Shown: piece after piece, positions 3,484 through 33,706 of the stretch
How the letters are laid out: the number at the start of each line of letters is the position of its first letter
How positions within the stretch are numbered: position 1 is the stretch's first letter
DNA from: a virus
Strand: one strand, 5' to 3'
DNA length: 36,172 bases
IMG/VR virus record: IMGVR_UViG_3300032820_000044
Location: 1 to 36,172 of that record
Notes under the pieces: model-generated
Told to the model about the DNA's origin: nothing
Databases searched by the model: none
The model's input: the letters and a program-made list of their open reading frames with translations, nothing else
Translations under genes and position numbers: made by a program

Positions 3484-4403
3484 GTTTTTTAGCATCAGTT
3501 AAGGTTGGGCATGTGGATTCAAACAGAAAGCTATTGATAGCTGGAGAGTCTGGCGTGGGTAAGAGCACGGCGGCTTGCAGTGGCGAGGGGGTGGTGGCTA
3601 TCGATCCATGCGGAGGGACAGACCGTATCGACGTGGCTAGGCTCTCGTCCCCGAATGGAGCGTGGACCTGGCCCATGCTCATCGAAGCAGTCAACGAGCT
3701 TTGCGAGCAGGACCACGACTACTCGCGTCTCGTCATCGACGAGCTTGGTCACTGGGAAAACCTGTCTTGGCGATACCTGTGTCAGCAGCACGGCAAGGAA
3801 AATATTGAAAGCTGGGGGTACGGCCAGGGGTATAAGCTCGCTCTTGACGAGTGGGGGCGACTGCTCGCCAAGCTGGAACGCCTGCGGGAGAAGATGGAGA
3901 TTGTCTTGGTGGTTCACTCACACGCAAAGCCTTATAGGAATCCCGAAGGACCTGATTATGACCGCATGGTTCCAAACCTCAACACGGCGCTGAGCGCGAA
4001 GCTGCGAGGCTGGTGTGACACCGTGCTGTTTGCTCGCTTTCTCGACACGACTGCCAAGAAAGACACTGGCCGGAGCATTGGTATCACCGGAGCCAGAGTT
4101 TTTGAGACCACGCACTCGGCGACCTGGGACGCGAAGAACCGTGACGGGCTCCCTGCGCGGTTGCCGCTCGACTGGGACACCTACCAGGAAGCGGTGGACC
4201 GGGGCTCTCCTGGTACGCCAGAGGAGCTTGCAGCGGACATCGAGGCGCTTCTGGGCAAGCTGGACAAAGCCAAGGAACGGTACGTCAAGGCGAAGATGAA
4301 GCAGGCCGGAGAGGACTGCACGAAACTAAAGATGGTACTCAATTATGCGCAGACGCATGCGTCAACAGAAACAGAAGGAGAGTCAAATGATCACAGCAGG
4401 TAA
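3480..4403 (+). CDS. Sak4-like / AAA_24 family RecA-fold ATPase
   Basis: This 307-residue protein has a RecA-like nucleotide-binding core: Walker A at residues 22-30 (GESGVGKST) and Walker B LVIDE at 84-88. A strand reading EIVLVVHSHAK follows at about residues 140-150. This layout matches the phage AAA_24/Sak4 group of single-strand annealing or strand-exchange proteins. It lies between a Cas4-like nuclease and an SSB-like gene, the usual setting for a phage recombinase. It starts in an ATGA overlap with the nuclease gene and ends inside the first codons of the SSB-like gene. Residues 245-300 are charged and probably helical. Recombinase function is inferred from family and context. Confidence 0.8.
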   Translation: MSFLASVKVGHVDSNRKLLIAGESGVGKSTAACSGEGVVAIDPCGGTDRIDVARLSSPNGAWTWPMLIEAVNELCEQDHDYSRLVIDELGHWENLSWRYLCQQHGKENIESWGYGQGYKLALDEWGRLLAKLERLREKMEIVLVVHSHAKPYRNPEGPDYDRMVPNLNTALSAKLRGWCDTVLFARFLDTTAKKDTGRSIGITGARVFETTHSATWDAKNRDGLPARLPLDWDTYQEAVDRGSPGTPEELAADIEALLGKLDKAKERYVKAKMKQAGEDCTKLKMVLNYAQTHASTETEGESNDHSR

Positions 4404-4797
4404 ACATAGAGCCCGTGCAATCACCGCCGATTTAGGTGAAACGTCCACAGGCAAAGAGCAGGTTTGGATCGAGTTTCAATTAGGGTCGGATGGCGGAACA
4501 ATCAGGTGGTACGGATATTTCACCGACAAAGCCATCGGCATCACCACCAAAGCGCTCCGCGCGTGCGGATGGAAGGGTGATGACGTGACCAAGCTGGACG
4601 GCATCTCGGACAACGAGGTCGAGCTGGTAGTAATAAACGACGGCGACTGGGGGCCGAAGGTCAATTGGATCAACGAGCTAGGCCCAGGCAGGTCGGCAGC
4701 CATGGGGGACGTGGCCAAGAAATCTCTCAGAGAGCGCGTGGCGGCTCGCATGAAGTCGGCGGGCTTGGTGGAGGACGGCGATGCCATCCCGTTTTAA
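4387..4797 (+). CDS. Single-stranded DNA-binding-like protein with SSB-type C-terminal tip
   Basis: I place the start at the ATG at 4387, behind AGAAGGAGAG, giving 136 residues. The open frame extends upstream to 4345, but that stretch overlaps the ATPase gene without a ribosome-binding site. The sequence is a mixed beta protein (residues about 8-95) followed by a charged linker. It ends in D-G-D-A-I-P-F, very close to the acidic D-D-I-P-F tip that bacterial SSBs use to recruit partner proteins. It resembles the small phage proteins grouped as DUF669 and probable SSBs. The fold assignment is an inference; the tip is seen directly. It overlaps both neighbours by 17 bases. Confidence 0.72.
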   Translation: MITAGKHRARAITADLGETSTGKEQVWIEFQLGSDGGTIRWYGYFTDKAIGITTKALRACGWKGDDVTKLDGISDNEVELVVINDGDWGPKVNWINELGPGRSAAMGDVAKKSLRERVAARMKSAGLVEDGDAIPF

Positions 4798-5081: not shown

Positions 5082-6596
5082 TCATTTAATCCCCTTGGCC
5101 ACCTCGAAATGCATACCGTCTGGGCGCGTGGAGTAGTGACCACCCCAGTAAAAGCCATGTTTGTTGGCCAAGGGCACCAGCCTGAAAACACTCCCCTTCT
5201 CCCCGTCCGGCTTAGGGGCAGACCCTAAGGGGTTCCAGGTCGCGTTCATATCCACGGCGCTGGCGTAGGCGTGGTTGCTCAACGTGCGCCGGCTACCTCG
5301 GATAAACCTGGGTGCCCAGCTCCCGGCCCAGCTCAGAACGTACTTCATGAGGTCCGCGTCTTCCCAAGCCTGGAAGAGAGCCTTGAGCTGGTCTGCATAC
5401 TTCTTGTGAAACGCCACCCTGCCGTTCTTCGGCGCACCAGGAATGCCAACCAGCTGGGGGATGTCGACGAAGGCTATGTACTTCTCGTCCCAATGATTCG
5501 TTATGCGTATCGCCTCGGGATTCCCCGGCACCGGAACCGACACGTACTCCAGTTTGCCAAAGCGGCGATTACGGTCGGCGGGCCGAATGGGCGCGAAATC
5601 GGGGTGCTTGGGGAAATCCACTGGCGCGAAGATGCGGGCCCGTACCGTGCTGTGCGCCTCGCGTTCCTCGTTGGCCGCTTGCCAGGTGCGCGGCCCCACG
5701 ATGCCGTCTGCCCGCAAGCCCTCTTCTCTCTGCCATGACTTGGTGCATCCCTCGGTCAGCTTACCGAAGTCCCCATCTGCGCCGTAAGGCTCCAGGGTGA
5801 GCCCGTCAGTGATGAGGATGTGCTGCCATGTGGCTACCCACGTCCCGCTATCGCCCAGCCGGATGGTCGGCGGCTGGGAGTGCGGGTCGATGATGCTGGG
5901 AGGCTCATCAACAACGCCTTCCTCTGGCACCCCTGGCTGCCTGGACCACTGTAGTGGTCGACCATCGTGACAAAGAAGAGCGCATAAGTCTGGATGCTGC
6001 ATGACCTCGCCCACGTCCATGAGCTTGCCGTTCACGTAACACTCACCATGCACCAACACCAGAGTCATAGAATAGTCACGATGCCGTAGATTATGAACAT
6101 TGGACTCTGGTTGGATGACTCGCAGGTTTGGATCGCTGGCAGACGGGTGGAGTTTGATGCCCTTCCACTCGGTTCCCTCGGTGGCCGGCAGATGCCAGCC
6201 GTAGAGCACCGCACGCTCCTCGTGAGCCCGGTTGCTGAGCACCCAGTGCTTTCCCACGTTGGAGACGATACCGGCTTTAGGCGTCCCCACAGCGGCACTA
6301 ACACGCTCGTCGTGCTCGATGGCAGCCATGTGGCTGTCCATGCCTTCTCCACCCGGGTAGCCTTTGGGCTGCGGGGGTATCTGCGTCTTGGCTGCCGCGT
6401 ACCTGGCATCGAGCAGCTTGGGTGTGGGCAGGTATGCGTCTAGCTCATCAGCGGCCAGTTGTGCGTCATACGCCGTCGTCGTCATACGGATCGGATTCTT
6501 CGCTGCGTCCCGAAACACTCGGAACGTCCCGTCTAGATCCGCTGTTGTTATTTTCAGGTCTTCCCAGCACCACTCTGTCTTTTCTAAAATACTCAT
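5082..6596 (-). CDS. Endolysin-like protein: peptidoglycan-binding domain plus M15 (VanY-like) peptidase
   Basis: This 504-residue protein probably cuts peptide cross-links of the host wall. Residues about 250-320 form a PG_binding_1-type repeat domain (IRLGDSG, DGDFG, DGIVGPRTW). The C-terminal 65 residues hold the zinc site of M15 D-Ala-D-Ala or L-Ala-D-Glu peptidases: H442-x6-D449 in SNHAYASAVDMN, and H496 in GMHFE. The first 230 residues form a separate domain I do not recognise, unusually large for a simple endolysin. There is no signal peptide, so export would depend on the holin-like protein upstream. It is the last gene of the late operon, before the terminator. Confidence 0.87.
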   Translation of the reverse strand: MSILEKTEWCWEDLKITTADLDGTFRVFRDAAKNPIRMTTTAYDAQLAADELDAYLPTPKLLDARYAAAKTQIPPQPKGYPGGEGMDSHMAAIEHDERVSAAVGTPKAGIVSNVGKHWVLSNRAHEERAVLYGWHLPATEGTEWKGIKLHPSASDPNLRVIQPESNVHNLRHRDYSMTLVLVHGECYVNGKLMDVGEVMQHPDLCALLCHDGRPLQWSRQPGVPEEGVVDEPPSIIDPHSQPPTIRLGDSGTWVATWQHILITDGLTLEPYGADGDFGKLTEGCTKSWQREEGLRADGIVGPRTWQAANEEREAHSTVRARIFAPVDFPKHPDFAPIRPADRNRRFGKLEYVSVPVPGNPEAIRITNHWDEKYIAFVDIPQLVGIPGAPKNGRVAFHKKYADQLKALFQAWEDADLMKYVLSWAGSWAPRFIRGSRRTLSNHAYASAVDMNATWNPLGSAPKPDGEKGSVFRLVPLANKHGFYWGGHYSTRPDGMHFEVAKGIK

Positions 6597-11201: not shown

Positions 11202-13343
11202 TCACCGTTCAGGATACAACTTCTTGTACCAGTCGTGCGCGTCGCTCATCTGGGCGGCACCGGGCACGACTGGCATGAAGGGTTTCACATAGTCCGCAAC
11301 GGCACTCCCGACCGCCAATACACGGTCCATCCCGGATGCTGGGGGGGCCGACCCTCCCCTTAGATCCTTATGGGCCACGGGGGTCATGTTGGTTGGCGCC
11401 CACCTATATCCCAACTCCTGGCCACCGGGGGTGAACCCGCGCGTGACTTCATACCCGTCCTTGGTGAGTACGCGGCGAGCGCCACTGCTTCCCGGTTGGA
11501 ACCGGACGAAGTTCCACTTGGCATTGTGAAGCATGATACCCTCCTCGACAATGTTGTCAAAAGGCTGGAACAGCTCTCCTGGCTTCCCGCCACGCTTCTG
11601 GCGACCCTCGATGAATTGCCTGAACACTTCCTTAGTTCTTCCGCCAATGCCCTTCTCGAAGCGGTCGAGCCCGTAACCCTCTTTGATGAGGGTCATCTCG
11701 TCCTGAGTGAACTGCGCACCGGAGCCCGAAAGCATACGCCCAGCATTCACCAGATTCTTGGAGTACTGGTGCATAAGGGCAGCGTCCTGTGAATTCATAA
11801 GGAGTTCAGCGAACTTCCCCTTGTACCTGGACCGTATCTCGTCGATTCCACGACGCGCCATCACTAGCTGAGCAAGTGCCTTTTCTTCGTTGCGAAGCTT
11901 TAGCCCCTGCTCCCCCCTCAGGCCCAACAGCTTTCCCTGTTTGCCACCCTGGGAATGGTCCATGGCAGTCTGGTAAGCCTTACCGGCTTTCATGGGCATA
12001 CCCATCGTGGCCAACCGGCGCCTATGCGCTGCGGCTGCCCGGGCCCGCTGTGCAGCTCTGGCTGCCGCCAGCTTGGCTGCCTCGTTGGTAAGCTCTCCCC
12101 TCAGAATGTCTCTATCCTTCTTCTGAAGGTCGGTAATCAGCTTGAAGTTTCGCTGTTGAACGTCACTCCGCAGGTTAGACGCAAGCGATTGCGTCTTGGC
12201 CATGACACCATCTAGCATCATAAGACGCGCCACCTTCACCGATTGTCCAATGTTATTGAATCTCTGGTTGAGTTGACTAACGAGGGTGGCCCGCGCCTTC
12301 ACCGCTCCGGTCTGGTGCCGCAACGTATAAACCTGAGAACGAATGTCTGCGTCGATCTGAGATTTAATCAGGCCGTATGCCCAGTTTGGGCTTTTCGACA
12401 GACTCGCCCCCAGATTTCCAAGCGCCAGGGACAGGACCGCCAGTACCTTGCCGCCCGTGTCTTTGGAGTTGTACCAACGGTTAGGGTCGACCTCCCTCTT
12501 GGAAAGTTCGTCGATGGCGGCATTCTGCTTTTCAAGCTGGCGCGACACGTCTTCTTGGTAGCGCTCCTTGAAATCCTCAAACTCTGCCCGCTCTTCCTCC
12601 ACCTGAGCAAGATGTTCGTCGTGTATGGCCGCTTGCTTGGCCGCCGCCTCGGACTTGTACAACTCCTGCTCGCCCTGCGCATCCTGAGCAATCCACTTCT
12701 GCTCTCGCCTCATGCGGTGAAGGTTAGCCTGTGCGCCCCACGCACTGTTTTCCCACTTGTGGTAGCTGCGCACCGCAGCTCTGCCCTGGGCCTCAGTAAT
12801 CGTTCCCTCGGCTTCGGCCTTTGCTATCTCGTCAACGTAGTTTCCAGAAGGGAACATCAGAAGGCCGCCGGCCAAAACCCGTGCGCGCAGATGCTCAGGG
12901 TAAGCTGCCCATGCCGCGCCAGCAACGGCAGCGGCTCTTCGGCCCGGCTGAGGGACGCCCGCCCTATCGGCCCGTGCCTGCGCCTCTTCTGGCGACTCAA
13001 CAGCATCAGGCTCATTGAGGGCGTCATCAGGCTCATTGAGAGCGTTGATGTCTGCATTCAACTCTTCCTGCGTCAACGGCGCGTCCCACTCGCTCCTACC
13101 CGGGTCGTCTATAAAGGGAACATGGACCGGGTGGCCAGATGAGGCCTCACGACGGCCTCTCGTTAAAAATCGGTGCGCCTCCTGGTTCACCTCCGATAAA
13201 CTAGGCTCAGGCTCAGGCTCAGGCTCAGGCACAAATTCCGTCTCGGCACCCATCCCCTGCTCTCTGAAAGCATCTTCGTCGAAAGGCTTATTTTCGTCGT
13301 TAGGACTTCTCGGCTGTACAGCGTCACGACTTGTTCCAGCCAT
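11202..13343 (-). CDS. Large virion protein, internal/ejection candidate (713 aa)
   Basis: The first 140 residues are acidic and low complexity. They include a run of Pro-Glu dipeptides at about residues 38-47 and a seven-residue tandem repeat ALNEPD(D/A). Residues about 215-270 form a strong charged coiled coil rich in Glu, Lys and Gln. A patch at about 280-330 is moderately hydrophobic (VLAVLSLALGNLGASL). Basic Ala/Arg helices follow at about 400-430. No enzymatic motif is seen. It sits two to three bases from each neighbour. Length and place suggest an internal core protein; the acidic N-terminus may be a disordered assembly region. Confidence 0.62.
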   Translation of the reverse strand: MAGTSRDAVQPRSPNDENKPFDEDAFREQGMGAETEFVPEPEPEPEPSLSEVNQEAHRFLTRGRREASSGHPVHVPFIDDPGRSEWDAPLTQEELNADINALNEPDDALNEPDAVESPEEAQARADRAGVPQPGRRAAAVAGAAWAAYPEHLRARVLAGGLLMFPSGNYVDEIAKAEAEGTITEAQGRAAVRSYHKWENSAWGAQANLHRMRREQKWIAQDAQGEQELYKSEAAAKQAAIHDEHLAQVEEERAEFEDFKERYQEDVSRQLEKQNAAIDELSKREVDPNRWYNSKDTGGKVLAVLSLALGNLGASLSKSPNWAYGLIKSQIDADIRSQVYTLRHQTGAVKARATLVSQLNQRFNNIGQSVKVARLMMLDGVMAKTQSLASNLRSDVQQRNFKLITDLQKKDRDILRGELTNEAAKLAAARAAQRARAAAAHRRRLATMGMPMKAGKAYQTAMDHSQGGKQGKLLGLRGEQGLKLRNEEKALAQLVMARRGIDEIRSRYKGKFAELLMNSQDAALMHQYSKNLVNAGRMLSGSGAQFTQDEMTLIKEGYGLDRFEKGIGGRTKEVFRQFIEGRQKRGGKPGELFQPFDNIVEEGIMLHNAKWNFVRFQPGSSGARRVLTKDGYEVTRGFTPGGQELGYRWAPTNMTPVAHKDLRGGSAPPASGMDRVLAVGSAVADYVKPFMPVVPGAAQMSDAHDWYKKLYPER
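13004..13045. repeat. 21-bp tandem duplication inside the 713-aa virion protein gene
   Basis: Two adjacent 21-base units, 13004-13024 and 13025-13045, differ at one base (G versus A near the end of each unit). They encode the repeated heptapeptide ALNEPD(D/A) on the minus strand. The in-frame unit length means gain or loss of a copy keeps the protein open. Confidence 0.85.
13203..13230. repeat. Hexanucleotide microsatellite encoding Pro-Glu repeats
   Basis: Four full AGGCTC units and a partial fifth lie in tandem. On the minus strand they read as Pro-Glu dipeptides near the N-terminus of the 713-residue virion protein. The repeat is in frame, so slipped-strand changes would lengthen or shorten the acidic linker by two residues. 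Confidence 0.88.
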
Positions 13344-13345
13344 GA

Positions 13346-16216
13346 TTATTTCCTCCCGTGGCGATCTTCACGTTCTCGCTGCGTCCCGTGGGAGAAGGAA
13401 AACCCTCGTGGATTTCCGGGGTGTCTCGACGTAGGAACGGTGCTGCTCAGGTGATCGTAAAAGTTTCGGTAACGGTCCACGGCGGCTCGGGTATTCTCGT
13501 CCAGGGGCTCGCCTAGATCTTCATTTGGGTCCTGGTAAGACGGAAGAGGAGGAGTCTCCTCCACAACGTCCATGTGCTGTCTCACGTCGTCAAACGTCGG
13601 GCCGTCTTCGTAGCGACGCTCAGGCGGCCACCTCCATGCCCCGCCTGGCGTATAAAGATTAGGATCGGGAGCCGCGCGGCGAGGCTTCGGCTCTGGGACA
13701 CCCTTAACCGTAGTGGTGGTGGGCCAGTTCCCGGCGCGAGCCCGGTCGTTGTCCTCCTCCACCGCCGCAAAATGTTTCTGAATCCTCGCCTCCATGCTTG
13801 GGCTGTATGAATAGGTGGCACGGTAGCGCCCACCCTCGGTACGGTGGGGACCAGGCATGTTGGACTCCCACATGCGCTCAGCCTTATTTAGACCCCGCAA
13901 GCGGCCGTCGTCTTTATAGCCCCCATACCTCCAATTCTCTGGCCTCTGTTTGTGAGCAAATCCTCGTTCGTTGACGTATGTCTTTCGGCCACGCTTTTTC
14001 TTTCCGCCAGCCATTCGGCGCTCAGTCTCCGCGCCCAGGCGATCTAACTGGGCCGACAAAGCGTCCACCTTGCTCCGCGTCTCCTTCTCTCGCTCGTGGA
14101 CTTCCTTCAAGCCAGGTGTAACCACGCCATAGAGATAATTGTCATGATGGATTTTCTCGCCAGTTGGCGTATCGATGACAGCTTCTTTGCCCAGCGGAGT
14201 CTCCCCCAGTTCTTCAGCCATTGGCCCACGGCGGGGGCCCTGGTCCAAATCTAAACCGCGCCCTTCCTTGGGCCGGTCCTCTGGCTTCTTGTAGGTGTAA
14301 GGATAAGTCTGAAGACCATCGAGCGTTTCGTTCACGTCCCCGCTATCGGTACGCTCGAATCCGCGCTCTCTCTCCGGCGCTGTTTGCATACGCTCACGCA
14401 CGCGCCGCCCGACATGCATCGCCATCTCGTCGTCTGCTCGTCGAGCGTTGGTGCCCTCCTCGTCGAGCCTATTCATGAAGTCGGCAAGCTTGGAGCGCTT
14501 CTCTTGCTCCAGAGACCGGTTCACCCGAGAACCGTCTTCCCGGGTCTCCACCACATCGTTGGTGCCATAACGCGGGTTGCGCTCGCTGGAGGTGACGCTG
14601 CTGAGATGATCACCCGGCTGCTCACCAGGATACATAGGCTTCCACCCAGCCAAGTAGTTGGGCGGCAGCGGCTCCTTGCCGCGCATTTCGCTGTCCCCAC
14701 TACCGGCAGCCTGTAGCACTCCCTTCAAGCCGCCTTCCTTGGCCGCACCTCGGAGGGCACCCTCGGGTCCACTCTTCGGCATCCTGCCCATGGTGGCCAC
14801 CTTGTGCTTGGCCACATCCTTACGGGCTTCTCCCCACTGGGGAGTCTTCTCTCGGAGCTTGCTCTTGTAGTCTCGCTCGTCTCGCGCATCTTTGTACTTC
14901 TGAAACCCGCGCTCTATCTTGCCGCCCAAGTCGTCAGAGTATTTCCGCGTGCCCTTGTCCTTTTTCTTTCGCGCGTACCGGGACTCGCCTGCACGCTTTT
15001 TCCAATCTTGGGCCGCTTTGCTCTTTTTGTCATCAGCGAGCCCCTTGCGATAATCAGCGAATCCCTCCTTGTATGCCTTCTCGCCCATGGTCTCGGCTAA
15101 GGATTTCGATTGGCGATTTTCCACGCGGCCAGGCATATACCCTGCGTCGCGTACCTGGCCCCCCGTGGCGCCGGCTCGGTCCTCCAGGCCCCTGCTAGCA
15201 TTTCCTCGGTAGACCAGCTGGTCAGAGGTGCCTTGTGTATTGGCATACTCGCGTTGAGAATCTATATCGAGCGCCACTCTGTCGAGGCCGCCGGGCAACA
15301 CGGACTCTCGCCGGTACTCTGGAAATAGAGGAACATCTTCGCGAGCAACGCCAGGGGTAGCCGCGCCGCTGGGGGACAGGCTCGCCGCTCGGTTGGGAGG
15401 CGACAGCTGTGGATTTTCAAAGGGTTCATTGAACCCCTCTCGAATAACGCCGGACCTGCCACCCAGCACCTGCCGGTCCACGTCGCGCCCCTCGGGGCTA
15501 AACGAGCCTCTTTCGCCTGACAGTCTAGAGGATAGATCTCCCTCGGCACCTTCAGGTCCCGGCGCCCTAGTGGAGGTCGGAAATTTCCCCTCGTAGGTTT
15601 TAAGGGGATCCTTGTATGTGTTACCGGGGCTCGTCATCAGCGAAGACCGCTCACCCGTCGAGCGGCTGTCTTTAATGTCGATGGATGAGCCACCGCCGCC
15701 CGCAGCCAACGCGGCGCCGCCGCTTACTGCGCCTACCAATGCGCCGGCTATCTCCATACCGAATGCGCGATCGGCTTCTTCCTGCGCACGGTTCTCAGCC
15801 ATGATGGCAGCATGATGTTCCGCCTGAGCTTGCGAGGCTTGCATTTGTTGCCCAGCATGCGTGGCTTTTCCGGCTGCTAGGTTTGTCATCGCGCCCATGG
15901 TCTGCTGTCGCGCGCCAGACTCTTCCTGGGCACGCAGCGCCGCTGACTGCCCGACACCTTGACTCGCCTGCTGGGCTCCGGCCAACATGCCGGCTCGCGC
16001 GGATAGTCCGCCGCCTGCCCCCATGGCTGCCTGCTGCTGGGCGGCAGATGACAGGCCTTGGCGCAATTGCTGCTGAGCGAGAGATAGACCGCCAGAGGCC
16101 ATCTTCTTCTCGTACTCGCGGGCCTCATTGGTAGCTTCGCCTAGCGTGTGTACGCCAGAGGCCGCTGCCGTAGGAGAGTAGATTTCGTTTTCGTTGTCTT
16201 CTCGTGCGTTTGCCAC
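13346..16216 (-). CDS. Giant virion protein, internal/ejection candidate (956 aa)
   Basis: Residues about 35-180 are rich in Ala, Gln and Gly (QQLRQGLSSAAQQQ and similar). They end in a hydrophobic Gly/Ala segment (EIAGALVGAVSGGAALAAGG) that could span a membrane. The rest is very hydrophilic, full of Arg, Glu, Asp, Gly and Pro, and probably extended or disordered. A Gln-rich N-terminus followed by one hydrophobic patch is typical of podoviral ejection proteins. A stretch near residues 740-765 (LDRLGAETERR then KKKRGRK) is closely matched in the small protein at 21495-21959. No enzymatic motif is visible. It is separated from both neighbours by two bases. Confidence 0.62.
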   Translation of the reverse strand: MANAREDNENEIYSPTAAASGVHTLGEATNEAREYEKKMASGGLSLAQQQLRQGLSSAAQQQAAMGAGGGLSARAGMLAGAQQASQGVGQSAALRAQEESGARQQTMGAMTNLAAGKATHAGQQMQASQAQAEHHAAIMAENRAQEEADRAFGMEIAGALVGAVSGGAALAAGGGGSSIDIKDSRSTGERSSLMTSPGNTYKDPLKTYEGKFPTSTRAPGPEGAEGDLSSRLSGERGSFSPEGRDVDRQVLGGRSGVIREGFNEPFENPQLSPPNRAASLSPSGAATPGVAREDVPLFPEYRRESVLPGGLDRVALDIDSQREYANTQGTSDQLVYRGNASRGLEDRAGATGGQVRDAGYMPGRVENRQSKSLAETMGEKAYKEGFADYRKGLADDKKSKAAQDWKKRAGESRYARKKKDKGTRKYSDDLGGKIERGFQKYKDARDERDYKSKLREKTPQWGEARKDVAKHKVATMGRMPKSGPEGALRGAAKEGGLKGVLQAAGSGDSEMRGKEPLPPNYLAGWKPMYPGEQPGDHLSSVTSSERNPRYGTNDVVETREDGSRVNRSLEQEKRSKLADFMNRLDEEGTNARRADDEMAMHVGRRVRERMQTAPERERGFERTDSGDVNETLDGLQTYPYTYKKPEDRPKEGRGLDLDQGPRRGPMAEELGETPLGKEAVIDTPTGEKIHHDNYLYGVVTPGLKEVHEREKETRSKVDALSAQLDRLGAETERRMAGGKKKRGRKTYVNERGFAHKQRPENWRYGGYKDDGRLRGLNKAERMWESNMPGPHRTEGGRYRATYSYSPSMEARIQKHFAAVEEDNDRARAGNWPTTTTVKGVPEPKPRRAAPDPNLYTPGGAWRWPPERRYEDGPTFDDVRQHMDVVEETPPLPSYQDPNEDLGEPLDENTRAAVDRYRNFYDHLSSTVPTSRHPGNPRGFSFSHGTQREREDRHGRK

Positions 16217-29674: not shown

Positions 29675-29743
29675 GGGGGTAGGGGGCGGCGCCGGGCGCG
29701 CGGGTGGGGGGCTGCCCTGGGCACAGGCGGGCCCAATGGGCCC
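29675..29743 (+). other. G-quadruplex-prone run with flanking hairpins
   Basis: At 29675-29711 five G-runs of three to six bases are separated by loops of 2, 7, 5 and 1 bases on the plus strand, meeting the usual G4 pattern. Directly after come the perfect palindrome TGCCC-T-GGGCA (29713-29723) and the repeat GGGCCCAATGGGCCC (29729-29743). Such a block could stall polymerases or act as a regulatory structure. Folding is predicted only. Confidence 0.5.
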
Positions 29744-29921
29744 CGGGGGACCTCCTCAGCCCTCCCCTCCGGCCTCGGTGGGCCGAAACGACCACAGAGT
29801 GGTTTCCTTTCCCCAACCCACCCCACAGTGTCAGCCGCTCGGCCGACAACCAATCACCGATCACGCCCCGAGACGTCAACCCACCACCGACAACTCATTT
29901 CACAATTCGTCAATAGATGCA

Positions 29922-29949
29922 TTGACAATGAAAGCCGAATGACTAAACT
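29922..29949 (+). promoter_or_regulatory. Sigma70-like promoter of the accessory operon
   Basis: TTGACA (29922-29927) is a consensus -35. A 16-base spacer leads to TAAACT (29944-29949), matching four of six -10 positions. The predicted start near 29956 gives a short leader that holds the repeated AAGGAG ribosome-binding cassette before the ATG at 29982. Confidence 0.6.
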
Positions 29950-29981
29950 ACCAATAGACCAAGCAACAAGGAGTACAGACA

Positions 29982-30488
29982 ATGGGACTAAGTTACGACG
30001 AAGCCATGGTCGGCGTGAAAGGGGTTGACCCAAAAACCACGCTAGCCCGGCAAATCCGCACCGCCACCGCGATGAACCTAAAGCTCTCGGACGTGCGTAA
30101 GCTTGCTCTCAAATACCCCGAACGATACGGGGCGCTACTCGCCCATTACCAATCGCAACAAGGAGTACAGACCATGAACAACACAACATCAGCGCCCGGC
30201 CTTTACAGCAACACTCAGCCGGGGGGCAACTTCGACGTCAACACATCGATCGTCCGCGCACTACAAGCGCTCCGATTGACAGATGGCCTATTCTCGTATC
30301 GCCTCCGGGGGGACGTGTCCAGATTCGAGGGGCGCCACGACCTCAGCCCGGACCAGCTCGCGCAAGCCGAAAAGGCGTGGGAGCAGCTAAGGACCATTCG
30401 GGCTGCTATCGAGGGGGCGCTTGGCACACTGGACGCCTACAACGCGCAGGAAAAGACCGTGGACGGCTTCATGGGCTACAACTCATGA
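29982..30488 (+). CDS. Composite protein with an internal ribosome-binding leader (168 aa)
   Basis: A 168-residue open frame begins at 29982 behind the AAGGAG-N3-AGAC leader. At 30147-30173 the same leader occurs again and is translated in phase as Y-Q-S-Q-Q-G-V-Q-T, followed by a second ATG at 30174. Two readings are possible: a long and a short protein from one frame, or two former genes joined by loss of the first stop codon. The first 65 residues are a basic helical unit (TLARQIRTATAMNLKLSDVRKLALKYPERY). The part from 30174 is a 104-residue helical protein (DLSPDQLAQAEKAWEQL). Neither part matches a family I know. The stop overlaps the next ATG. Confidence 0.75.
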   Translation: MGLSYDEAMVGVKGVDPKTTLARQIRTATAMNLKLSDVRKLALKYPERYGALLAHYQSQQGVQTMNNTTSAPGLYSNTQPGGNFDVNTSIVRALQALRLTDGLFSYRLRGDVSRFEGRHDLSPDQLAQAEKAWEQLRTIRAAIEGALGTLDAYNAQEKTVDGFMGYNS

Positions 30489-30724
30489 AAAACACGATGA
30501 CCAAGCTGCCACGCGAGCTTTCCAGGGGTGACAGCATACTGGTAGGGGGCATACCATCCGTCGTCATTCGCGTGGGTAAGCCGCAACGAGGGCACCGGGC
30601 AGCGCGACGGACCGAGCTTGTATGGCTCGTGGGTGTGCTCGTGGCCAACCCCATTGATGGGGTTACTGAAACCACCTTCAGGTCCACGGACAACGTGCAA
30701 CTTCTAGCCGAAAGGACAACATGA
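30485..30724 (+). CDS. Small hypothetical protein (79 aa)
   Basis: The start at 30485 is in an ATGA overlap with the upstream gene, so the open extension back to 30377 is not used. The sequence is beta-rich (RGDSILVGGIPSVVIRVG, ELVWLVGVLV), possibly a small barrel-like fold. No signal peptide. Its stop overlaps the next start, so three genes are coupled in series. Function unknown. Confidence 0.7.
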   Translation: MKNTMTKLPRELSRGDSILVGGIPSVVIRVGKPQRGHRAARRTELVWLVGVLVANPIDGVTETTFRSTDNVQLLAERTT

Positions 30725-30933
30725 CCGCCGAAAGATTCTACCTCATAGCGGGCATATATGCCTATTGCGTGCTTAACCAGGGCGGCCAGTGGTCGCGGCT
30801 TTACCGCACCTTGTCACTAATCGAACGCACATGCACGCCGCGCAACATTCCGGTGGAGCTTATAGCAGGCGGTGACGATGAATGGTTTGAGGCGCATGAA
30901 GCCTATGCGCGCATGGAAACGTCAGGATACTAA
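30721..30933 (+). CDS. Small hypothetical protein (70 aa)
   Basis: Coupled to the previous gene by an ATGA overlap. A helical protein with several aromatic residues (FYLIAGIYAYCV, LYRTLSLIERTC) and an acidic end. No motif is recognised. The serial overlaps are the main evidence that it is translated. Confidence 0.68.
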   Translation: MTAERFYLIAGIYAYCVLNQGGQWSRLYRTLSLIERTCTPRNIPVELIAGGDDEWFEAHEAYARMETSGY

Positions 30934-30966
30934 TCCAACAACAACACAACAAGGAAAAGAGACAAC

Positions 30967-31032
30967 ATGAAAACCAATTACACGTTCATTCCCGTAGCCT
31001 CGCTGGTTTATCTCAAGCTTAGCGTGGGATAG
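30967..31032 (+). CDS. Possible 21-residue ORF behind a conserved leader
   Basis: A leader copy (AACAAGGAAAAGAGACAAC) precedes an ATG at 30967 that opens a 21-codon frame ending with TAG at 31030-31032. The peptide has a hydrophobic core (VASLVYLKL). It is followed within about 10 bases by a stable stem-loop, a layout like leader peptides or attenuators. It may also be a decayed gene. Below usual detection length. Confidence 0.4.
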   Translation: MKTNYTFIPVASLVYLKLSVG

Positions 31033-31042
31033 CCCTTAAACC

Positions 31043-31067
31043 CTGCTGAGCTTCCAAGGCTCAGCAG
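31043..31067 (+). other. Stem-loop between the 21-residue ORF and the Cys-rich protein gene
   Basis: CTGCTGAGC (31043-31051) pairs fully with GCTCAGCAG (31059-31067) around a 7-base loop. Outer CTTAA/TTAAG arms add pairing. No run of T follows, so it is not a classical rho-independent terminator. It may be an RNA-processing, stabilising or attenuating element before the next gene, whose leader follows 10 bases later. Confidence 0.55.
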
Positions 31068-31105
31068 TCTTAAGCGCTACCAATCACAACAAGGAGCAAA
31101 GACAA

Positions 31106-31870
31106 ATGCAGCTAGCAACACTCGGACTACCACGCAAGCCCAACACGAAGCGCAAGCTCGGCATGGTCAACCAAACCAGCATGAAAGTTTGGCAAGGCCC
31201 AAGCGCTTACGATGGCCGGCCAATCTACTTGGCCATCACCAATCTAGTGCGCGATAGCGTAAACCGCAAAACTGGCCCTACTGCAAATGCTTGGATAATG
31301 TCGGCCGAAGCCGAGCCTCATACGGCGGCGAAAGCTGGCGATGACCGTTCGTGCTGCGGCGATTGCGTTAGGCGGCCGGCAAACGGCGAGTACCTCAAGG
31401 CCAATGGGATGAAAGCTTGTTATGTCGTTAAGCATGAAGCGCCCTTAAGCATTCATCGAAGCCTAAAAGACGCGACTCCGGTTGGACTTGAGCGTGCAAA
31501 GCGAGCGCTTGAGCATTCGGGCAAAATACTGCGATGGGGCGCTTATGGTGATCCCGCCATGTTGCCTATCGAACTCGGGCGAGAGCTTTCATCTGCCGCC
31601 CAAGATCATGTTGGCTATTCGAACCAATGGCACCTTGCATTTGCGCAACCATGGCAATCGTTACTAATGGCTAGCGTGTCGTCTTTTGAGGCGATGCTAC
31701 AAGCTCAAGCCATGGGTTGGCATACGTTTAGGGCTGATAAACTCGGCTCGGCGATTGCCAATCATGAGACCATTTGCCCAGCTTACGACACTAAGAACGC
31801 CGTTCAATGCGTATCCTGCAAGCTATGCAACCCCAAACGGGGTCGCGACGTCGTAATTGTTGAACACTGA
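31106..31870 (+). CDS. Cys-rich phage protein, DUF7227-like, function unknown
   Basis: This 254-residue protein has two cysteine clusters: C83, C84 and C87 with C105 in the first half, and C224 with C235-x2-C238-x2-C241 near the end. They suggest a zinc or iron-sulphur site. Other marked parts are the G-P-S-A-Y-D-G-R-P-I-Y-L start segment, RWGAYGDPAMLP at about 143-154 and the final ETICPA. Similar uncharacterised phage proteins share the GDPA and terminal Cys motifs, but I cannot name a reaction. It follows the stem-loop and has the conserved leader. Its codon choice looks less GC-biased than the late operon by eye. Confidence 0.72.
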   Translation: MQLATLGLPRKPNTKRKLGMVNQTSMKVWQGPSAYDGRPIYLAITNLVRDSVNRKTGPTANAWIMSAEAEPHTAAKAGDDRSCCGDCVRRPANGEYLKANGMKACYVVKHEAPLSIHRSLKDATPVGLERAKRALEHSGKILRWGAYGDPAMLPIELGRELSSAAQDHVGYSNQWHLAFAQPWQSLLMASVSSFEAMLQAQAMGWHTFRADKLGSAIANHETICPAYDTKNAVQCVSCKLCNPKRGRDVVIVEH

Positions 31871-31890
31871 TAAACAATAGGAGAAAGACA

Positions 31891-32133
31891 ATGTCATTTG
31901 AAGCAAGGAAAAATAGCGAGTGTCCAGACTGTAATGCCCCGATTGTGCGGGGGCAATTAATTGAGGGCACGCGCAAGCGTGGAGTGTATCGCCACGTTAT
32001 ATGCGAGCCTATCCCATGCGCGGAATATCAAGCGGGGCAGGCGGACTATAACCAGTACAAGACTGATTTGCTGTTTGGGGAAGAGTATGCCGGCGCGCAA
32101 GAATATGCGCGCTATTTGAAATTCGGCGAGTAG
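31891..32133 (+). CDS. Small zinc-ribbon-like protein (80 aa)
   Basis: An N-terminal C-P-D-C at residues 11-14 and a later H-x2-C at about 35-38 could bind one zinc ion. The rest is acidic and Tyr-rich. It has its own leader copy (TAGGAGAAAGACA) before the ATG. Function is unknown. The motif suggests nucleic-acid or protein binding. Confidence 0.65.
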   Translation: MSFEARKNSECPDCNAPIVRGQLIEGTRKRGVYRHVICEPIPCAEYQAGQADYNQYKTDLLFGEEYAGAQEYARYLKFGE

Positions 32134-32161
32134 TAACCAATCACAAAAGGAGTAGAGACAA

Positions 32162-32317
32162 ATGTATAAAGTAGAAGTAATCGCAGACAGTTCGGGCAAT
32201 TGGTGCGGCAACGGCCTAACCTTTGACACGGAATCGGATGCCGAGGCATACGCACGTGATTTGGCGTATCGCTGGACACTTGTGGAAGAGTGGCGAGTGG
32301 TCAAGGTGGCTTCATGA
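32162..32317 (+). CDS. Small hypothetical protein (51 aa)
   Basis: A 51-residue frame starts at an ATG immediately after the full conserved leader and ends in an ATGA overlap with the next gene. The peptide (MYKVEVIADSSGNWC, then ESDAEAYARDLAYRW) has a beta-alpha pattern and looks like a small folded domain. It is too short for usual length cut-offs. Leader and overlap make it credible. Confidence 0.75.
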   Translation: MYKVEVIADSSGNWCGNGLTFDTESDAEAYARDLAYRWTLVEEWRVVKVAS

Positions 32318-32523
32318 TTGCGCCGCTCACAAGCTACGGCGCATTTCTGCCCGTGTACCTTGAGAGTCTACGTGCACTGCTTTCGGTGCCTATTCTCGGC
32401 GTATCGAGCGCGATGGCCGTCGTCTATGCCAAGCGCTTGGGCCTCCTTGCGGATAGATATCCGCAGTGGACAGAACGCGCGGACCAAGAAATTGAATTAA
32501 AAATGCACGACAAGGAGAAATAG
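32314..32523 (+). CDS. Small membrane-type protein (69 aa)
   Basis: The start at 32314 is chosen because it overlaps the previous stop (ATGA). An open extension to 32290 exists but lies inside the upstream gene. Residues about 8-35 are hydrophobic (GAFLPVYLESLRALLSVPILGV), consistent with one or two short membrane segments. The tail is charged. A second holin or membrane effector is possible but not supported by specific motifs. Confidence 0.66.
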   Translation: MIAPLTSYGAFLPVYLESLRALLSVPILGVSSAMAVVYAKRLGLLADRYPQWTERADQEIELKMHDKEK

Positions 32524-32525
32524 AC

Positions 32526-32765
32526 ATGAGTCAACTAAGTGATATCGCCGCAAGCGACGAATACCGGGCCTTTATACGTGGATTTCGCGCCGGCCATCTT
32601 ATGGCCTTCCAGTACAAGGAAATCCCGAGCACCGTCTGTGCCGATTATAATGCCGGGTACGAGCAAGGGCATGCAGCTGGCGCCAAAATACGCCAGCAGA
32701 CTATCGAAGTAGCCTCTAAAGCCGGTATTCGCCATGTGACCAAAGCTGTTAAGGTGGAGACATGA
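32526..32765 (+). CDS. Small hypothetical protein (79 aa)
   Basis: It begins after AAGGAGAAATAGAC. The N-terminal half contains DEYRAFIRGFRAGHL and a Y-N-A-G-Y-E-Q-G-H-A-A-G motif, a helical pattern seen in several small phage proteins of unknown role. No cofactor site is seen. The stop overlaps the lectin-fold gene start by four bases. Confidence 0.68.
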   Translation: MSQLSDIAASDEYRAFIRGFRAGHLMAFQYKEIPSTVCADYNAGYEQGHAAGAKIRQQTIEVASKAGIRHVTKAVKVET

Positions 32766-33706
32766 GTGAGCAATTCTATAAGATACAGGGATTTTCGGGC
32801 AGCACGCCAGCTGGGGGCCCTGGCGTGCCGTTTAGCGGCATGACTCCGGGCTTGCCCTTTGCTGCCAAGGCAGCGGATGCGAAACTCATAAGCGTGGGCG
32901 GGATTGCGGCCTTTGATAGCTTTGTGGCTACGCACTATCCGGCTTCTGTGGCGCCCTACTATGCCGCCATCCCCCCCACGAGCTTCCACATAGAGCAGTG
33001 GAGCCCACTTGACATCTCGCTGCCGCTGCGTATTTGGCTCGACTCTACCGCTATTCCGCTGGCGGGCGGCGCACAGGTGCAGACCTGGGACGACCTGAGC
33101 GGGAACGGCTACCAACTTACGCAGGACAGCTTGATTAATTCGCCGATCTATGACGACGTGCAGTTCAACGGGTGCTGCCACTATGCCACCAGCGGCAATA
33201 TCGATCCTAACTCACGCTGGCTATCAGATACTAGCTTCGCAGCAGCGAATATTATGACGATGTTTGTGGTGTTGCGTTTCGACGGGACGATGGGCGGGGC
33301 TTTCTTAACCGCCTCGGATTTCCTTTCGGACACTTCCCCGCCGACCCCCAGACTTCGCTTGGGCCCGGACGGCGCCACTTACAACTTCCAGGTAGCCACG
33401 GGGCCCCCGCCGCTCAGCGGCTCTGTATGGGACAACTTCACCCATGTCATTAGCTGCGACTATTCACCAGCTGTGGTGAATTTGTACCGCGACGGGGTCC
33501 TAGACGCCAGCGCGGTGATGTTCACGATCGGTATGGGCGGTATTGCCGTGGGTACTGACCCCTCGTTATTAGGTAACTACAGCTGGGATGGCCTCATTGG
33601 CTCCATAATTATCGTCGCGGGAGTTTGCTCTACCGAGGAGAGGACGCTGGTACAGACGTATTTAGCCCAGTTGCACTCGACCCCGGCGGCCCCGATCGTG
33701 CTCTGA
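32762..33706 (+). CDS. LamG/concanavalin-like lectin-fold protein
   Basis: This 314-residue protein starts with about 80 polar residues rich in Gly and Pro, then a jelly-roll domain at about residues 88-310. Marks of the LamG-like group are LRIWLDSTAI, VQTWDDLSGNGYQLTQD, a FVVLRF strand, VVNLYRDGVL and WDGLIGSIIIV near the end, followed by a STEER helix. Such domains bind glycans and often sit on phage fibres or heads. It is unusual that this structural-type gene is on the opposite strand to the virion genes. Its 3' end overlaps the convergent muralytic gene by 77 bases. Confidence 0.76.
   Translation: MSEQFYKIQGFSGSTPAGGPGVPFSGMTPGLPFAAKAADAKLISVGGIAAFDSFVATHYPASVAPYYAAIPPTSFHIEQWSPLDISLPLRIWLDSTAIPLAGGAQVQTWDDLSGNGYQLTQDSLINSPIYDDVQFNGCCHYATSGNIDPNSRWLSDTSFAAANIMTMFVVLRFDGTMGGAFLTASDFLSDTSPPTPRLRLGPDGATYNFQVATGPPPLSGSVWDNFTHVISCDYSPAVVNLYRDGVLDASAVMFTIGMGGIAVGTDPSLLGNYSWDGLIGSIIIVAGVCSTEERTLVQTYLAQLHSTPAAPIVL

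Follow-up and report, generated by a model that had tools for sequence, protein, structure and literature searches.

An in-phase copy of a repeated start leader and probable nested products in a small early gene of an IMG/VR virus record

In the virus record IMGVR_UViG_3300032820_000044, analysed here as a single window of 36,172 bases, an open frame of 168 codons without a stop (29982–30488, + strand) contains, in phase, a second copy of the leader that precedes its own start codon. On sequence evidence, this one frame probably carries two ribosome entry sites and gives a long and a short product, an arrangement that would have originated by fusion of two units. Ribosome entry at 29982 would yield a 168-residue protein, and entry at 30174 would yield the 104-residue C-terminal part of that protein (30174–30488, + strand), which starts at the internal ATG and ends at the common TGA stop at 30486–30488. 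Each entry site would be a copy of the start leader that serves the independently translated small early genes of this phage, and the nesting would stem from two adjacent leader-gene units merged into one frame after loss of the upstream stop, whether by substitution, by a small indel or by recombination between leaders.

PHROGs and Pfam searches indicate that the window codes for a P22-like portal, a primase with Prim-Pol and VapE-like domains, and a ResIII-type helicase. The genes at about 5.1–29.2 kb, including structural genes, are mainly leftward, and a gap at approximately 29.2–29.95 kb divides them from a rightward small-gene block starting at 29982. No coding signal is detected in 29700–29950, the sampled part of this gap, by a codon model for which 15 large genes of the window served as the training set. 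Near its end, a promoter-like site at 29922–29949 (+ strand; TTGACA-16-TAAACT, 10/12 consensus match) is a candidate for the promoter of this rightward operon of small genes, and it is only the position of this site, just 5' of the first leader, that backs it, since four such sites were found against 3.2 expected in shuffles, with no excess over chance.

The leader preceding the ATG at 29982 (29955–29981; AAGGAG-TAC-AGAC) includes the sequence CAACAAGGAGTACAGAC at 29964–29980, which is repeated with 17/17 identical positions at 30156–30172. The upstream extension of the internal copy, TACCAATCGCAA, is closer to that of the copy at 31078 (TACCAATCACAA) than the 29955 copy is. A leader matrix of 26 positions was derived from six leaders (those of starts 29982, 30967, 31106, 31891, 32162, and 32526), omitting the internal copy, and the internal copy held out in this manner scored 29.2 bits, the third best site on both strands of the window. 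The best score of the same matrix over 200 simulated windows was 20.0, and its best site outside the small-gene block reached 16.8 bits. A pattern count independent of the matrix agrees with this picture, with five occurrences of CAANAAGGAGNANAGAC at up to two mismatches vs. 0.16 expected. An earlier note on this DNA had described the leader as recurring in phase at 30147–30173 (+ strand), where it is read in the long product as Y-Q-S-Q-Q-G-V-Q-T ahead of the ATG at 30174, and the sequence, its translation and the held-out matrix all confirm that description.

The window has seven leader copies, all on the + strand, at starts between 29982 and 32526. The first of them, itself included in the matrix, scores 27.6. 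The leader at 31078–31105 (score 31.8) precedes the gene at 31106–31870, a relative of PHROG 2554 (match 3.4e-45), a diverged leader at 31866–31890 (20.6) precedes the gene at 31891–32133, and the leader at 32135–32161 (28.6) precedes the gene at 32162–32317. The earlier note placed the leader between genes elsewhere in this region, which is nearly right: the leader of gene 32526–32765 (32505–32525; score 25.2) overlaps the 3' end of the ORF at 32314–32523 and carries its TAG stop, and the full leader at 30942–30966 (30.5) precedes just a 21-codon ORF (30967–31032, + strand; MKTNYTFIPVASLVYLKLSVG) with no longer gene behind it. This ORF is followed by a strong hairpin at 31027–31081 (-27.8 kcal/mol, z -3.4), located just before the leader at 31078. 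The leader and 21-codon ORF of this segment (30942–31081) may be what remains of a gene, or may form a small ORF with a regulatory role.

Several features of the internal site match those of the other leader starts. At both 29982 and 30174, AAGGAG lies eight bases 5' of the ATG. Among the 279 internal in-phase ATGs of the window genes, three have a 6-base Shine-Dalgarno sequence at 4–10 bases, and 30174 is the only one that has the full leader. Another of these three falls in the ORF at 4345–4797, where a far better start is available at 4387 (AAGGAG, 6-base spacing); because of it, the 4345 start is probably mis-called and the first 14 codons of that ORF are probably untranslated. The predicted fold energy of the segment from -35 to +35 around 30174 is -2.1 kcal/mol, vs. 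a regional mean of -17.0, which places it among the 1% of the region with the least structure; the other leader starts range from -0.1 to -7.6 kcal/mol, and the coupled starts of the operon from -9.1 to -22.2 kcal/mol. The distribution of the leader across operon junctions follows a simple rule. A full leader is present at all five uncoupled junctions (30967, 31106, 31891, 32162, and 32526, with gaps of 33, 73, 20, 28, and 2 bases, respectively) and at none of the four ATGA-coupled starts, which overlap the preceding gene by four bases (30485, 30721, 32314, and 32762). The full leader therefore predicts an independent start within this operon, and 30174 looks like one.

This rule also bears on the possibility that the locus comprises two separate genes, the first of which ends just before or at 30174, and that the joined frame reflects a contig error or a rare variant. 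The record is an IMG/VR virus contig, no stop interrupts frame +1 between 30082 and a TGA at 30175–30177, and a stop at this TGA, inside an ATGA, would resemble the four other operon junctions at which ATGA overlaps make such endings common. The codon score is 12.6 bits in the given frame and 16.6 bits with a switch to frame +1 at 30120, but this 4-bit gain, selected from 22 candidate switch points, lacks significance. Furthermore, such a junction would break the pattern of this operon, in which full leaders are confined to uncoupled starts and absent from all ATGA-coupled ones. We do not favour a shift of frame that would end at the ATGA, and regard the two-gene arrangement as unlikely.

The codon model indicates that the frame is coding on either side of the internal leader. 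The N-terminal part, specific to the long product (29982–30146, + strand; 55 codons before the internal leader), scores 13.0 bits, and the predicted short product scores 21.6 bits, with all five other frames negative for 29982–30146 and for 30174–30485. Relative to simulated sequence of the same composition, these two pieces deviate by z = 3.1 (p ~ 0.002) and z = 4.4, respectively. Both halves are hence probably translated, in one common frame. The internal leader, unlike both flanks, has no coding signal of its own (-0.5 bits), and looks more like a start signal than like selected coding sequence. An AlphaFold model of the 168-residue frame, computed from the single sequence, has low confidence (mean pLDDT 45.6); it is too poor for a fold search and does not resolve whether the N- and C-terminal parts are separate domains.

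The coding signal of the first 55 codons is pertinent to a different interpretation, according to which the short protein alone matters and 29982–30173 acts as a leader ORF that regulates, or couples, translation from 30174. The ORF at 29982 is the first behind the candidate promoter, and the 21-codon ORF at 30967 offers another case of a leader followed by a very short frame. The first 55 codons, however, have a normal coding signal (z ~ 3), and the frame has no stop before 30174, so that the product of such a leader ORF would be the full fusion. We accordingly give this interpretation little probability. Nested translation of a long and a short product, in which both starts would be used and both proteins would be stable, has in its favour the codon signal in the same frame on both sides of the internal leader.

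Searches for relatives were conducted with the whole frame and with each half separately, as the earlier note had proposed. No relatives, separate or joined, were found in viral contigs, genome contigs or a phage collection, in contig scans that first require an exact 8-residue match and could miss distant relatives, and these searches leave the fusion unproven. The sole notable phage match, of 25 residues to a Klebsiella phage Erf-like/recombination protein (E ~0.8), was taken as chance, and the frame had no significant match in PHROGs, Pfam, PADLOC, PDB sequences or Rfam. For other genes of the window, terminase and helicase searches returned no close relatives and a capsid search in genomes returned none, and a portal search returned two relatives. 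A related contig of 32,019 bases (L098 and L099) is syntenic with the window, has a portal that is 70% identical, and carries structural genes, a primase, a helicase and a possible relative of gene 34409 (E 3e-5). In its sequenced part, there is no leader and no better-than-chance match to any gene of 29982–33706. The latter region might thus be a variable block, although its absence from this contig is only suggestive because the contig may be incomplete.

The leader does not follow a gene family. An association with the family of gene 31106 was rejected, given that relatives of this gene in other viruses lack the leader, and the leader is hence a feature of the block of this phage. A scan of viral contigs for ACAACAAGGAGNANAGAC produced matches that are mostly coding and attributable to chance. 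On the complement strand of contig L011, at approximately 12300–14620, very similar leaders (ACAACAAGGAGCAGAGAC-ATG) precede several small genes; the protein similarity of this contig to the window is weak. In contig L029, four tandem leader-like units (ATTTAACTACAACAAGGAGTAGAGACAAGG) occur at 5958–6138 on the complement strand, spaced 40–53 bases, with no obvious gene between them.

Geneless repeats such as those of this tandem array are compatible with a third alternative, namely that 29982–30488 is a single long gene, with 30174 unused as a start and the internal leader either a relic or a copy that recombination inserted into the gene. The 3' end of the ORF at 32314–32523 also illustrates that a leader can be read through. 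The internal site nonetheless has all the features of the other leader starts (Shine-Dalgarno sequence, spacing, low structure, and ATG), and we consider a single product very unlikely.

The earlier note offered two explanations for the internal leader: fusion of two genes by loss of a stop codon, or a long and a short product from two starts. These are compatible and not mutually exclusive. Two starts are well supported by the sequence, through the leaders, their spacing, the low structure and the coding signal, and fusion, while unproven, is plausible from the anatomy of the locus. The locus would most likely have arisen by fusion of two leader-gene units, given that an entire leader of the intergenic type is present internally and that the stretch it occupies is devoid of the coding signal of its flanks. 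Counting against the overall reading of two starts and a fusion, an open phase alone is unremarkable, since in this phase the leader is free of stop codons, and a third of neighbours will share its phase. A broader conjecture, which we hold to be doubtful, is that the leader constitutes a mobile or recombining start module and that the leader-gene units of the early block are shuffled as cassettes. A unit landing in phase behind a gene without a stop would then generate a fusion protein together with its C-terminal part, and two outcomes of such shuffling would be the fused frame at 29982 and, at 30967, the orphan leader with its 21-codon ORF.

Repeated start leaders have been described in phages as Start-Associated Sequences (SAS) in Cluster K mycobacteriophages (PMC3203893), with a similar motif in Cluster EF Microbacterium phages (PMC7302621). 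SAS are reported 5' of gene starts, with one noted exception, Anaya site 7, and mostly of genes whose intergenic space exceeds 50 bases, and about half of the Cluster K SAS sites have upstream ESAS, which are 17-bp inverted repeats (PMC3203893). Like SAS, the leader studied here is conserved, repeated and more extensive than a Shine-Dalgarno sequence, and it occupies the position of a ribosome-binding site at many small non-structural genes, always in the same orientation and within one part of the genome. In contrast, the SAS consensus GGGATAGGAGCCC has no matches with up to two mismatches in the window, the gaps here span 2–73 bases, and one copy is embedded in phase within an open frame. 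The leader is hence akin to SAS in position and behaviour, yet its different sequence and shorter gaps preclude its classification as SAS. As regards ESAS, the repeat search in the window covered direct repeats, and the hairpin at 31027–31081 is a single case.

In-frame nesting also has precedents. T7 gene 4A/4B and lambda C/Nu3 are classic in-frame nested phage proteins made from two starts, and correspond to known replication and head-assembly proteins. They share in-frame nesting with the frame described here, which differs from them in its leader repeat; to our knowledge, no repeated leader element is involved in either. The closest parallel in arrangement is Ms6 lysA241, which shares the reading frame of lysA, follows a consensus ribosome-binding site, and belongs to a pair of which both products were tested (PMC3111421). 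In both cases a gene is wholly contained within a longer phage gene, in the same frame, with its own consensus ribosome-binding site and a shared stop, and 30174 fits this description as a same-frame second start with AAGGAG at 8-base spacing and the full leader. The products here, however, are hypothetical and unrelated in sequence, and the internal ribosome-binding site belongs to a leader that recurs along the operon. In the CTP1L endolysin, an internal translation start likewise yields an N-terminally truncated, C-terminal part, and the short form complexes with and regulates the long form (PMC4777826); complexing and regulation were shown in that system, whereas the products here are predicted only.

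Repeated leaders and nested frames each have counterparts in other phages, and their combination here adds another example to a known type. Should 29982 and 30174 both serve as starts, a single small phage gene would encode two proteins where gene callers report one. If the proposed origin is correct, the locus would provide a concrete case in which common start leaders turn neighbouring small phage genes into fused and nested ones. The gain is mainly one more example and a caution for the annotation of small phage genes.
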